Below, piece by piece: positions 2,676 to 8,236 of a DNA stretch of 42,789 nt. Positions within the stretch are counted from its first letter, which is position 1; each line of letters starts with the position of its first letter. The position numbers were made by a program, and so were the translations under genes. The notes beneath the pieces were generated by a model. It worked only from the letters and a program-made list of their open reading frames with translations. It was not told where the DNA came from and made no database searches. The stretch spans positions 1 to 42,789 of IMG/VR virus record IMGVR_UViG_3300030380_002546; one strand, written 5' to 3'. Origin of the DNA: a virus.

Positions 2676-2709
2676 ATCGCTTTACTTTCTTTTAAATGGT
2701 TTTTATATT
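2674..2709 (+). promoter_or_regulatory. Promoter, GCTTTACTTT class (copy 3, box doubled)
   Basis: AAATCGCTTTACTTTC (2674-2689), then TATATT (2704-2709) 14 bases later. A second AAATCGCTTTAC begins 15 bases upstream, at 2659-2670 inside the preceding gene, so the box occurs as a tandem pair. It would drive the gene at 2737 and possibly the structured leader and mazG. Confidence 0.55.
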
Positions 2710-2937: not shown

Positions 2938-3200
2938 AGAAAAGTTAGCGAGGTAATCTTTGAGCGGTCACACCTCCTGTAAAGCTATGAGTATTAGCTT
3001 AGATTGTAAAAGAAAATTACGTTTGACCGCATCAAATTCATATGCGTAATTTTCATACTCAGAGCAAGGGGACTCCGTTCTCCTGTTTAACAAGATTAGA
3101 TCACTTGTGCTCAAAAACGATCTTGTGGTGCCTTAATACAAGGATGAGGCTTAAAGGAACAATCCTAATACAACGCCACACTTTAGTTTATTAATAAGAA
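2938..3200 (+). ncRNA. Candidate structured RNA / mazG leader with interlocking stems
   Basis: A 273-base gap in a gene-dense region with many inverted repeats. GCGGTCA 2964-2970 pairs with TGACCGC 3024-3030. GAAAATTACG 3012-3021 pairs with CGTAATTTTC 3045-3054, and these two interlock (a-b-a'-b'). TGAGTAT 2988-2994 pairs with ATACTCA 3055-3061, yet also lies in the loop of AAGCT 2982-2986 / AGCTT 2996-3000. GAGCA 3062-3066 pairs with TGCTC 3108-3112 and interlocks with ACAAGAT 3090-3096 / ATCTTGT 3120-3126. AGGGGA 3067-3072 pairs with TCTCCT 3079-3084. TGTGGTG 3124-3130 pairs with CGCCACA 3174-3180. I match it to no known RNA class; the tRNA, tmRNA and RNase P signatures I looked for are absent. 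Confidence 0.5.
3078..3084 (+). promoter_or_regulatory. Anti-Shine-Dalgarno sequence facing the mazG ribosome site
   Basis: TTCTCCT (3078-3084) is exactly complementary to AGGAGAA (3201-3207), the ribosome binding site of the MazG-like gene. The same bases also form the 3' arm of the local hairpin 3067-3084, so the two pairings exclude each other. This is the layout of a translational on/off switch. Upstream, ACCTCCT (2972-2978) is likewise complementary to AGGAGG sites. Pairing is seen; regulation is inferred. Confidence 0.4.
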
Positions 3201-3210
3201 AGGAGAAAAA

Positions 3211-3522
3211 ATGATAGATGAACCAATAGAATTTTTAATTAGAGAAGTAGAAGATTGGGCGAAAGTTCGAGGGCTTTTTACTGCTGATGTCCAACCAGAA
3301 AAACAAATGTTAAAACTTGTAGAAGAAGTCGGAGAAACAGCAAAAGCAGTTGCCTATAAAGATAAATGGTCTTTAGCTGACGGTATAGGTGATTGTTTAG
3401 TTTGTTTAATAGTATTAGCAAAACAAAATGATCTGAGTATTCGTGAATGTTTAGATACCGCTTATGGAGAAATTAAAAATCGTAAGGGTGTTTTAGAAGA
3501 CGGATTGTTTAAAAAAGATTAA
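3211..3522 (+). CDS. mazG: MazG-like nucleotide pyrophosphohydrolase
   Basis: The 103-residue protein has the single all-alpha MazG domain of the NTP-PPase superfamily. EEVGE (38-42) and D57-x3-D61 (DGIGD) match the metal-binding ExxE and ExxD-type helices, and the C-terminal LDTAYGEIKNRKG is typical of the family. Such enzymes cleave nucleoside triphosphates to monophosphate and pyrophosphate. In phages they are proposed to tune nucleotide or alarmone pools; the substrate cannot be read from sequence. Length fits stand-alone phage MazG-like proteins. It has a strong AAAGGAG site that may be masked by the upstream structured leader. It is the only enzyme recognised in this block. Confidence 0.85.
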   Translation: MIDEPIEFLIREVEDWAKVRGLFTADVQPEKQMLKLVEEVGETAKAVAYKDKWSLADGIGDCLVCLIVLAKQNDLSIRECLDTAYGEIKNRKGVLEDGLFKKD

Positions 3523-3527
3523 CTGGT

Positions 3528-3566
3528 AAATGGCTTTATTTTCGTTAGGCTGTTTTTTATTATTTA
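3528..3566 (+). promoter_or_regulatory. Promoter, GCTTTACTTT class (copy 4)
   Basis: AAATGGCTTTATTTTC (3528-3543), one base off the consensus box, then TATTTA (3561-3566) 17 bases later, in the gap after mazG. It would drive the cluster from 3598 to 5124. Confidence 0.5.
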
Positions 3567-3597
3567 TATAGTTAAAAAATCTTATTAGGAGGATATT

Positions 3598-3831
3598 ATG
3601 ACTAAGAAAAAGAAACTACTCACTATTTGTGAGTCAAATATGTTTTGGACTCCCGAGAGCCAAGAAGAACTTAATGCACGTATAGATAAACATATACCTG
3701 AAGAGGCTATGTTGATGCATATGGCTTGTGCATTCCAACAAAACTTGATTGTTAATACCGTATTGAAATATGGTATTGAAAACACCGAGTTTGTTGCTGC
3801 TGGACCATTATTTAAAACTGTAGAAAAATAG
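3598..3831 (+). CDS. Hypothetical protein, 77 aa
   Basis: A small soluble protein: a Lys-rich start (TKKKKLL), then a helical stretch with Met-rich segment EEAMLMHMACAF. No family recognised. The start is preceded by AGGAGGATATT, an initiation cassette found almost unchanged before four other genes (3841, 5208, 5535, 5906). The next gene's ribosome site overlaps this gene's stop codon. Confidence 0.83.
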   Translation: MTKKKKLLTICESNMFWTPESQEELNARIDKHIPEEAMLMHMACAFQQNLIVNTVLKYGIENTEFVAAGPLFKTVEK

Positions 3832-3840
3832 GAGGATATT

Positions 3841-4215
3841 ATGAATGAACCAAGATTAACTTTTACTACTGATGTTAGACGTTCTGATTATTGTGAAGGA
3901 TGTCAAAAAGAAGGTAGTAATCAAGTGAGCGGAGTTAAAAGACACCGTTCATTACCTTTAGATACATGGCTAATAAAGATAACTATGGAAGGTAGGGATG
4001 ATTGTGCTTGGCATGTTTTTTGTGCAGATTGTTTAGAGTCTGCAAATAAAGAAGAAAATATTACCGTTATACATGATGGTGATATATTTAAGAGGGCTAA
4101 CGTTGGCATGATGTTTATGGAGCCAGAGGATAAGCCTAAAATTAACCACGATAATTATCCAGATGATGTTAATTATCAGGTCGAAGAAGACCGATTATTA
4201 AAGGAGGAAAAATGA
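3841..4215 (+). CDS. Putative zinc-binding protein, 124 aa
   Basis: C18-x2-C21 (CEGC) and C61-x2-C64 (CADC), with C55 and H58 (CAWHVFC) nearby, form a likely split zinc-binding site in the first 65 residues. The remainder is acidic and ends in a charged tail (VEEDRLLKEEK). This is the third Cys-pair protein in the left block. The AGGAGGATATT cassette precedes the ATG and the end overlaps the next start (ATGA). The partner is unknown; host takeover would be guesswork. Confidence 0.85.
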   Translation: MNEPRLTFTTDVRRSDYCEGCQKEGSNQVSGVKRHRSLPLDTWLIKITMEGRDDCAWHVFCADCLESANKEENITVIHDGDIFKRANVGMMFMEPEDKPKINHDNYPDDVNYQVEEDRLLKEEK

Positions 4216-4601
4216 TACACGGATTACTTATAGACCCGTTTGAGCAAAGTGTTACTAGAGTAGGATTAAGTGATAATAACACTTTAAAAGATGCAAAGTT
4301 TTTTATGAAGCTTGATGGACCTATTGATATTGTTACCTTAACCGATGATACGATGGTAATAGTTGATGATGAAGCATTACTTAAAAACGATATGCGATAT
4401 TTTAAATTATCAGAGTTTCATCAACCATTAGCAAACCGAGCTATAGTCGTAGGTTATGGTGAAGAAGGTGAAACAGTTAGTTTTATTTATGATAATTCTA
4501 TAGATAAATTTATAGAAACTATCGAGTGGATGCCTGAAGATCATGTCGAAGAACCTTTTATGCAGTTTATACCAATACCAGATGAAAAGGAGATGAACTA
4601 A
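4212..4601 (+). CDS. Hypothetical protein, 129 aa (DUF3846-like pattern)
   Basis: A soluble alpha/beta protein. The central segment HQPLANRAIVVGYGEEGETV resembles the end of small phage proteins of the DUF3846 type, in which a conserved plain of strands precedes an NRAVVVGYDEEG-like turn. The match is from memory and weak. The start overlaps the previous gene, has AAGGAGG six bases before it, and the stop overlaps the next start, so the genes at 3841, 4212 and 4601 are probably co-translated. Function unknown. Confidence 0.83.
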   Translation: MIHGLLIDPFEQSVTRVGLSDNNTLKDAKFFMKLDGPIDIVTLTDDTMVIVDDEALLKNDMRYFKLSEFHQPLANRAIVVGYGEEGETVSFIYDNSIDKFIETIEWMPEDHVEEPFMQFIPIPDEKEMN

Positions 4602-5035
4602 TGGGATTAGATTGTTATATTGTACACGGTAATGACCGTGAGAAAGCTTTTACTTATGAAGATGACCCACGTATAAAAGATGTTAATTTATGCGGTGGTA
4701 TGATGAGCAACCACGGGGCTGACGGATCGTTTAGAGGTAAATGGTACGACCCTTTAGTTAGTGAATTATTAGAAGAAGATTGTGTATGGTATCCAGATGA
4801 AGGTGAATATATCCAAGCTGACCAATTAAAGAAACAAGCTAAAGCATTAGCCGATTTAATTCATGCAGTTGAATCTGACGCTAGAGAAGAAGAACGTACT
4901 TTAAAACCAGATACAATAATTTACCAAACTAGACATAATTCCCCGTATGAATATTCTTACCAAGAAATCCAAGATTTAGAATTATTATTACGTTGCGGAA
5001 GTGAAAGAGGTTGCGTTATGGAGTGTTGGTATTAA
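4601..5035 (+). CDS. Hypothetical phage protein, 144 aa
   Basis: Begins MGLDCYIVHGND and carries LCGGMMSNHGADGSFRGKWY (31-50), a Gly-rich signature I associate with a family of small phage proteins of unknown role. A long helix (QADQLKKQAKALADLIHAV) follows, and the end holds three Cys (LLLRCGSERGCVMECWY). No membrane segment is present. A good ribosome site (AAAAGGAG) precedes the start. It overlaps its neighbours on both sides by one base (ATGGG after TA, TAATG to the next gene). Confidence 0.85.
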   Translation: MGLDCYIVHGNDREKAFTYEDDPRIKDVNLCGGMMSNHGADGSFRGKWYDPLVSELLEEDCVWYPDEGEYIQADQLKKQAKALADLIHAVESDAREEERTLKPDTIIYQTRHNSPYEYSYQEIQDLELLLRCGSERGCVMECWY

Positions 5036-5124
5036 TGTTAGAACCAGAAAATTTATTAATGTTTTTTCTATTAGGGATAGTTGCCCTAATTATTAGTTCT
5101 TACTTAGCTATTGTAAGCTGGTAA
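5035..5124 (+). CDS. 29-aa single-span membrane micro-protein
   Basis: MLEPENLLMFFLLGIVALII then SSYLAIVSW: an acidic N-terminus followed by one hydrophobic segment of about 20 residues. The start overlaps the previous stop (TAATG) and the gene exactly fills the gap before the next promoter. Phage genomes often encode such single-span peptides that act on host membrane proteins, but there is no direct evidence of role. The lack of a separate ribosome site lowers confidence; coupling could supply initiation. Confidence 0.6.
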   Translation: MLEPENLLMFFLLGIVALIISSYLAIVSW

Positions 5125-5157
5125 ATGCCTTTTTTCTTTTTTAATGTTTTTTATAAT
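5123..5157 (+). promoter_or_regulatory. Probable promoter (weaker copy 5 of the box)
   Basis: AAATGCCTTTTTTCTTTT (5123-5140) is a degenerate upstream box, then a perfect TATAAT (5152-5157). The spacing is a few bases shorter than in the other copies. It lies ahead of the 5208-6713 gene group. Confidence 0.5.
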
Positions 5158-5195
5158 ATATAAAGTAAAAAAATTAATTTTTACGATTTTAATCC

Positions 5196-7638: not shown

Positions 7639-7674
7639 ACAGACCATAAAAACAGGACGGATAAACTAGATAAT

Positions 7675-7711
7675 AAACCGCTTTACTTTATTGCCGTTTT
7701 AAAGTTATAAT
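7675..7711 (+). promoter_or_regulatory. Promoter, GCTTTACTTT class (copy 6)
   Basis: AAACCGCTTTACTTTA (7675-7690), then a perfect TATAAT (7706-7711) 15 bases on. It drives the single gene at 7770, which has its own terminator. Confidence 0.65.
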
Positions 7712-8093: not shown

Positions 8094-8236
8094 TCCAATC
8101 CAATCGTCCAATCGTCCAATCCTCCAATCATCTTTCGTCCAATCGTCCAACCAACCAAGGTCCAATATCCAATATCCTCGTCTATCGTCGCATCGCTACT
8201 CGTCGCTCGTCGTTCGTAACTCGTCCCTCGTCGCTT
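8094..8236 (+). repeat. Decayed TCCAATCG minisatellite
   Basis: About seventeen tandem units of 6-8 bases. They begin as TCCAATCG, TCCAATCC, TCCAATCA, pass through TCCAATA, and end as TCGCTCG, TCGTTCG, TCCCTCG. The strand is almost free of G at the start and pyrimidine-rich throughout, unlike the surrounding DNA. There is no credible gene in it. Together with the terminator before it and the promoter behind, it accounts for the 315-base gap 8052-8366. Confidence 0.8.

Follow-up and report, generated by a model that had tools for sequence, protein, structure and literature searches.

The locus analysed here raises the question of what a gap of 273 bases in front of a phage mazG gene encodes, and whether it serves that gene. 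The original prediction was of a structured RNA of no described class, in which the string TTCTCCT (3078–3084) would alternately hide and free the mazG ribosome site AGGAGAA (3201–3207) in response to a nucleotide-type signal. Comparison with homologous loci (designated L003, L004, etc.) revealed compensatory changes in two parts of the gap, modules A and B. The structure ahead of mazG is therefore genuine, while a dedicated link to mazG was not upheld.

The window, i.e. the whole stretch of DNA analysed, spans a 42,789-base virus record (coordinates refer to its + strand); a near-identical contig of 60,658 bases holds the adjoining replication genes. The gap, present as described, separates a 66-aa zinc-finger-like ORF (2737–2937; CxxC...CxxCG ... 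NKGAYQYI ... IGR), which gave no match in Pfam, from mazG (3211–3522), encoding a MazG nucleotide pyrophosphohydrolase of 103 aa (Pfam MazG, 9e-8) whose ribosome site is predicted to be free. Since its DNA polymerase is 52% identical to that of 023Pt_psg01, 47% to that of Pelagibacter phage HTVC023P and 45% to that of HTVC027P, the phage is classed as a relative of the HTVC023P-type phages, a group described in PMC9599517.

ARAGORN identified no tRNA or tmRNA genes in the window. No recognisable promoter of its own was found ahead of the window RNA copy; the lone candidate (2681–2709) precedes the upstream ORF and is no better than shuffles. An intrinsic terminator (GC-rich stem followed by a T-run) was not detected on the + strand between 2600 and 3700. 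The promoter-like string GCTTTACTTT ... TATA(A/T)T recurs ahead of early gene clusters of the window (2681–2709, 3540–3570, 5120–5160 and 7650–7700). Elsewhere in the window, short tandem repeats, TCCAATCG and CTCGTCG, lie in the noncoding gap that follows the small terminase gene (8099–8235) and possibly mark an origin or packaging site; similar pyrimidine-rich repeats occur in L028 and in phage 023Pt_psg01.

Signals in the single sequence

A repeat search of the gap listed eight inverted repeats (at least seven had been claimed), including the perfect 10-pair stem 3012–3021/3045–3054. Counted from 6 bases upward, perfect inverted repeats are no more frequent than in shuffles (7 versus 6.8); counted from 7 bases upward they are enriched (5 versus 1.75, a value of 5 being reached by 7 of 200 shuffles), and a 10-base perfect repeat is rare (4 of 200 shuffles). 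Folded with nested pairs only, the gap has an ordinary minimum free energy (z −0.66; 46 of 200 shuffles equally good), because most of the real helices are pseudoknotted. The evidence for structure from the single sequence is thus weak, and the structure emerges from comparison with relatives.

Module B

Judging from its copies, module B (3062–3123) is almost certainly a real structured RNA of a new family. It is predicted to form a three-way junction with a pseudoknot, composed of P1 (3062–3066/3108–3112, GAGCA/TGCTC), the P2 hairpin (3067–3072/3079–3084, AGGGGA/TCTCCT), P3 (3091–3094/3104–3107, CAAG/CTTG) and the pseudoknot P4 (3098–3102/3119–3123), in which AGATC of the P3 loop pairs with GATCT located 3' of P1. 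The covariance model R1 scores this element at 59 bits (E 2e-11), the window itself being part of the model. TTCTCCT, which had been correctly assigned to a local hairpin (3067–3084), is the 3' arm of P2 (3079–3084) plus one base, and the sequence of this arm is not conserved.

About 25 copies of module B, from about 12 lineages, share the three-way junction and pseudoknot, with compensatory changes in all helices. In an alignment of 14 sequences, 98% of the cells pair and 7 of the 18 pairs have changed on both sides; none of 500 shuffles reached these values, and sliding the partner by 1–3 columns, as a control, lowered the pairing to 37–49%. The result was likewise obtained with 21 distinct sequences. 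The relatives were fetched by MazG protein similarity and by DNA patterns that fixed the sequence of P3 and parts of P1' and P4, so that invariance there is partly the product of selection; the 5' strand of P1, the whole of P2 and most of P4' were left free. Copies found via R1 or MazG similarity vary the pattern-fixed parts too. Later variants comprise GAGC/GCTC, GACC/GGTC, GAAC/GTTC (L025), GAGG/CCTC (second copy of L024) and GTCGG/CCGAC (L129) for P1, CAAG/CTTG and CGAG/CTCG (L016) for P3, and GGCTC/GAGCC, GGTTC/GAACC, AGATC/GATCT and GGTGC/GCACC (L129) for P4. Of the unpaired positions, only three hardly vary (U in L1, A in L2 and A before P4'). A rival hairpin specific to the window (ACAAGAT/ATCTTGT, 3090–3096/3120–3126) is present and is not conserved.

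R1 matched 17 of the 24 virus records searched whole, and gave no real match in the four closest named phages (HTVC023P, HTVC027P, 023Pt_psg01 and DSL-LC04). The module B pattern was absent from 84,980 prokaryotic genomes, and blastn of the locus and one B element against 50,697 phage records detected no related DNA. A descriptor search with arbitrary helices proved too permissive, yielding mostly chance matches. Relaxed DNA patterns retrieved chance matches lacking the fold (L057, L058 and L167–L172), which served as negative controls.

Module A and the CCUCC loop

Module A (2964–3061) is, with high probability, also a real structured RNA, predicted to fold into a double pseudoknot separate from B. 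Helix H1 (2964–2970/3024–3030, GCGGTCA/TGACCGC, 7 of 7 pairs; GGTAGCC/GGCTACC in L004) is a pseudoknot linking the 5' side of the module to the loop of P3, the 10-pair stem noted previously (3012–3021/3045–3054, GAAAATTACG/CGTAATTTTC; GATAATCTG/CAGATTATC in L004). Hairpin H2 (2982–2987/2995–3000) is formed by AAGCTA/TAGCTT (ACGTT/AACGT in L004), and in PK2 the H2 loop (2988–2994, TGAGTAT) pairs with 3055–3061 (ATACTCA), GAGTA/TACTC being unchanged in L004. Between the window and L004, 13 of the 28 pairs are doubly substituted and the strand order is the same; both L004 and L005 keep this order with different letters. The identity of module A between the window and the L004 family (63%) equals that of shuffled sequence (63%), and the alignment score lies above all shuffles. 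A pattern search for the module gave about 60 matches, real only in the window family and in L004/L005. A simpler version, a plain H1 hairpin of other letters with a CCUCC loop, occurs in L009, L012, L013, L014, L016, L017 and L024.

The anti-Shine-Dalgarno-like element that recurs is this CCUCC in the H1 loop (2973–2977 in the window), not TTCTCCT. It is present in all 14 H1 hairpins examined, and in 6 of 12 lineages CCUCC occurs no more than 120 nt ahead of module B, versus 4.4% of background windows (binomial 5e-6, for lineages that are not fully independent). GGAGG or GAGGT stands opposite CCUCC in most copies; it is absent in L004, L011b, L012b and L024b. The corresponding GAGGT strand of the window (2950–2954), which can pair with ACCTC of the CCUCC loop, is a remnant placed 12 nt past the ORF stop, and in L003 and L047 the same strand forms the final codons and stop of the upstream gene (GCG AGG TAA).

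Module C

Module C is probably a real structured RNA, again of a new family, as suggested by reading each stem individually rather than by counting pairs. Its closing stem (GTGG 3125–3128/CCAC 3176–3179) encloses two hairpins (GCCT 3130–3133/AGGC 3147–3150 and AGGA 3155–3158/TCCT 3163–3166), and a loop pairing (AGGAT 3141–3145/ATCCT 3162–3166) is likely, with TGGAT/ATCCA compensating in L003. The same layout with other stems was found in L024, L026, L092 and L004, and in L092 the plan also appears as an insert within another domain. In L018 a 95% identical module C stands without A and B, behind a promoter-like sequence.

Relation to mazG

The homologous loci do not bear out control dedicated to mazG. 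In L003, whose MazG is 99% identical, no RNA directly precedes the gene: the RNA (4178–4409) is followed by ORFs of 51 and 79 aa and then by mazG at 5001, which overlaps the preceding ORF, so that about 600 bases and two genes lie between. The L024 RNA that follows the zinc-finger ORF, at the orthologous position, keeps the order A, B, C at a sequence identity of 54%, i.e. at chance level, and precedes a gene unrelated to mazG; L024's own mazG sits elsewhere. L006 and L008 have a mazG of the same family and no RNA, as do most mazG relatives. Since the RNA stands before other genes and most mazG relatives lack it, it is not a dedicated mazG regulator.

The proposed switch fared no better. TTCTCCT is indeed exactly complementary to the mazG ribosome site; in relatives, however, the 3' arm of P2 reads CCCTT, CCTCT, AACTCT, TGCCTT and so on, tracking P2 pairing while complementarity to the ribosome site is lost. 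In the fold ensemble (nested model only), P2 pairs at probabilities of 0.54–0.84 and the ribosome site with TTCTCCT at 0.02, the site being about 85% unpaired. With 1.03 occurrences of TTCTCCT expected in the window and 10 of AGGAGAA present, the 7-base match is near chance level. No conserved alternative pairing masking the ribosome site was found in module B relatives, and a nucleotide-type ligand received no support.

Copies, neighbours and spacing

The genes next after B copies include mazG, a UDP-sugar-dehydrogenase-like ORF, a 35-aa hydrophobic ORF, a zinc-finger ORF and several unassigned ones. Module B occurs in tandem in L016 and L046, and in two copies per record in L011, L012, L015, L024 and L040. 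As read from these sequences, modules A, B and C are copied, lost and recombined among the intergenic gaps of HTVC023P-related marine phages. The folds, their reuse before unrelated genes, the tandem copies and the independence of mazG are established at the level of sequence comparison.

Measured from the last base of the upstream stop codon, the first arm of H1 starts between −6 and +13 nt in 13 of the 14 hairpins. The window H1 is the exception (+26), but it retains the remnant GCGAGGTAATC. In L003 and L047 this string closes the upstream gene, stop codon included, and lies 7 nt ahead of H1. Because the window keeps this gene end, the RNA seems to have moved along with the tail of another gene. 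On the other side, a ribosome site lies 8–17 nt past B in L009, L011b, L012b, L025, L044, L046b and L056, and in the unrelated phages L044, L048 and L056 a single B is packed tightly between a stop codon and the ribosome site. The 35-aa hydrophobic ORFs (L013, 4848–4960; L016, 4860–4965) start 9 nt after B and have no Shine-Dalgarno sequence. There is no obvious gene just after B in L129.

Homologues of the upstream zinc-finger-like ORF in L024, L026/L089, L090 and L092 are trailed by the module RNA or by different RNA arrays; the ORF also occurs in many relatives without RNA. Module B precedes the zinc-finger ORF in L025 (3040–3115), whereas its close relative L026 lacks the module there, a difference that represents a precise gain or loss of the module. 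At the same genomic place, other RNA arrays of 220–650 nt, built from different domains, are located in L026 (about 3340–3860; L026/L089), L092 (about 3200–3700) and L090 (about 3185–3400). In L089 and L092 one and the same helix tip of the domain TTGTGTGCGAGGGG...CCCACACAA bears different inserts, a pattern resembling nesting of RNA domains. After a series of H-type pseudoknots and a module B, the minus strand of L039 (around 4300–4650; also L081) has a 13-pair stem (TAGGTAGAAGTAG/CTACTTCTACCTA) and then TCTTTTTTT, an array that may be a stand-alone RNA ending in a terminator. Promoter-like sequences followed by a structured leader with the conserved loop GATTTTTTAGTTAGA were observed before an early gene in L018 (3900–4120), L020 (640–1010), L021 (1–300), L023 (3600–3930), L027 (1130–1380) and L028 (3250–3450); these leaders are further RNA families.

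Possible function

The best explanation, which we advance tentatively, is that the compact multi-pseudoknot RNA encoded by 2938–3190 may serve as a cis-acting, gene-independent intercistronic device; the RNA is probably a general device of gene expression, not a metabolite sensor for mazG. It would act in cis on the polycistronic mRNA. With module A starting at the upstream gene's stop codon, a ribosome terminating there would keep the module's first helix (H1) open, and B and C would form a rigid block ending shortly ahead of the following ribosome site. Such an RNA would most likely serve to set translation of the downstream cistron, or to uncouple it from ribosomes finishing the upstream one. 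Control would come from the interplay of folding and ribosome occupancy, with no metabolite bound, and the CCUCC loop would be the part able to mask nearby purine-rich GGAGG/AGGAG sites.

We infer support for this device from the compensatory changes in A and B, the variety of genes behind B, the tandem copies, the scarcity of invariant unpaired bases in B, the spacing of H1 to the stop codon and the 8–17 nt between B and the ribosome site, although the lineages are partly related and the counts do not represent independent events. Against it, such tight stop/start spacing could merely mirror the compactness of phage genomes, the start codons in L013 and L016 lack a Shine-Dalgarno sequence, B in L129 has no obvious gene behind it, and the partner of CCUCC is missing in the four copies named above. 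The long stem and T-run of L039, a possible terminator, could fit a free RNA.

A stand-alone, trans-acting phage RNA lying incidentally beside mazG, for instance a counter-defence decoy or an RNA whose CCUCC loop captures the ribosome sites of other mRNAs, is rather unlikely. It would suit the shuffled RNA domains of up to 650 nt in L026/L089 and L092, the inconstant neighbours, the fast gain and loss among close relatives (L025 versus L026), the end of the L039 array and the exposure of CCUCC in many copies. However, the window copy has neither a recognisable promoter before it nor a terminator after it, and the single B modules of L044, L048 and L056 are wedged between stop codon and ribosome site.

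By analogy with flavivirus xrRNAs, module B might be an mRNA-stability knot that stops 5'-to-3' exoribonucleases such as RNase J and thereby shields the downstream cistron, a reading that we consider unlikely. The xrRNAs of mosquito-borne flaviviruses (their fold is described in PMC5760640) are likewise viral, occur in tandem and have the same strand order (P1, P2 hairpin, P3 loop to a strand 3' of P1), i.e. a three-way junction whose hairpin loop pairs 3' of the closing helix; moreover, Xrn1-resistant RNAs also halt bacterial RNase J1 (PMC5760640). Module B, in contrast, comes from a DNA phage and has no sequence or Rfam similarity to xrRNA, the likeness being one of topology, which alone is not specific. 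The xrRNA-type ring pairing between 5' flank and junction was sought by eye in the flanks and J2/3 of 25 copies, and no consistent pairing was seen.

The translational operator of T4 gene 32 is a single simple pseudoknot bound by gp32 upstream of the ribosome site. The window RNA resembles it as a phage pseudoknot upstream of a ribosome site, and differs in consisting of multi-helix modules before unrelated genes. It is quite improbable that a phage protein binds B or A in this manner to repress or activate several cistrons. Several copies per genome before different genes would form a regulon, and the core is compact and conserved with few free bases, but no candidate binding protein emerged, and the adjoining zinc-finger ORF is also common in relatives without RNA.

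A small-molecule riboswitch formed by module B and serving several phage genes is very unlikely. Its three-way junction with a pseudoknot is a common aptamer plan, riboswitches also occur in tandem, and many copies have a ribosome site 8–17 nt downstream. Nevertheless, three invariant unpaired positions are few for a small-molecule pocket, the downstream genes share no metabolic theme, and alternative pairing with the ribosome site is not conserved. The riboswitch specific to mazG, in which TTCTCCT would hide or free the ribosome site under a nucleotide signal, is scarcely credible: it has the exact 7-base complementarity in its favour and is already contradicted by homologous loci, with the RNA apart from a 99%-identical MazG in L003, another gene downstream in L024, a P2 arm that in most relatives could not pair with the ribosome site, a predicted pairing of 2% and TTCTCCT expected about once in the window by chance.

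Further candidates were rejected. A −1 frameshift (suggested by an A-rich stretch upstream of GGAGG in L009) lacks the slippery string in L013 and L016, the reading frame of a leader peptide (LPP in L009 and L013) is not kept, and no toxin gene adjoins the type III antitoxin-like repeats.

Relation to known RNAs and significance

In agreement with the original prediction that no described RNA class has this arrangement, a search of Rfam (4227 models) with the window and 16 related loci gave no matches at the gathering threshold, and a permissive E-value search gave a best E of only about 3. The best sub-threshold scores, on the 3' side of the gap, were those of preQ1-II (RF01054) and freshwater-2 RNA (RF02980), at 17 bits versus gathering thresholds of 47 and 49.9, respectively, which at E of about 3 is chance level. 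On this comparison, the RNA modules are previously uncatalogued.

GOLLD and ROOL (Rfam; PMC12286853) are similarly phage-borne and multi-pseudoknotted with modular 5'/3' regions, some being from marine samples. They are larger (ROOL 659 nt, GOLLD above 800 nt) and lie near tRNA genes, whereas the window RNA has no Rfam match to them and the window has no tRNA. The manA, wcaG and PhotoRC-II RNAs (PMC2864571) are also structured RNAs of marine phage genomes and metagenomes; their sequences and folds are different (no Rfam match), and they are tied to particular gene functions, unlike the window RNA.

It is possible, though still doubtful, that these modules represent a new class of phage RNA, whose pseudoknotted domains are shuffled, nested and passed between gaps as cassettes, and which acts as a mechanical stop-to-start device (through coupling control or an xrRNA-like block). 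Despite the compactness of phage genomes, members of this marine group devote 220–650 bases between early genes to noncoding multi-pseudoknot RNA, whose domains they exchange. With covariance support for the set and a working model of one module, these RNAs are ready for probing. Should module B prove to block exonucleases, a DNA phage would carry an xrRNA-like fold; should module A prove to link termination with initiation, operons would be tuned by an RNA device that is independent of the genes involved.
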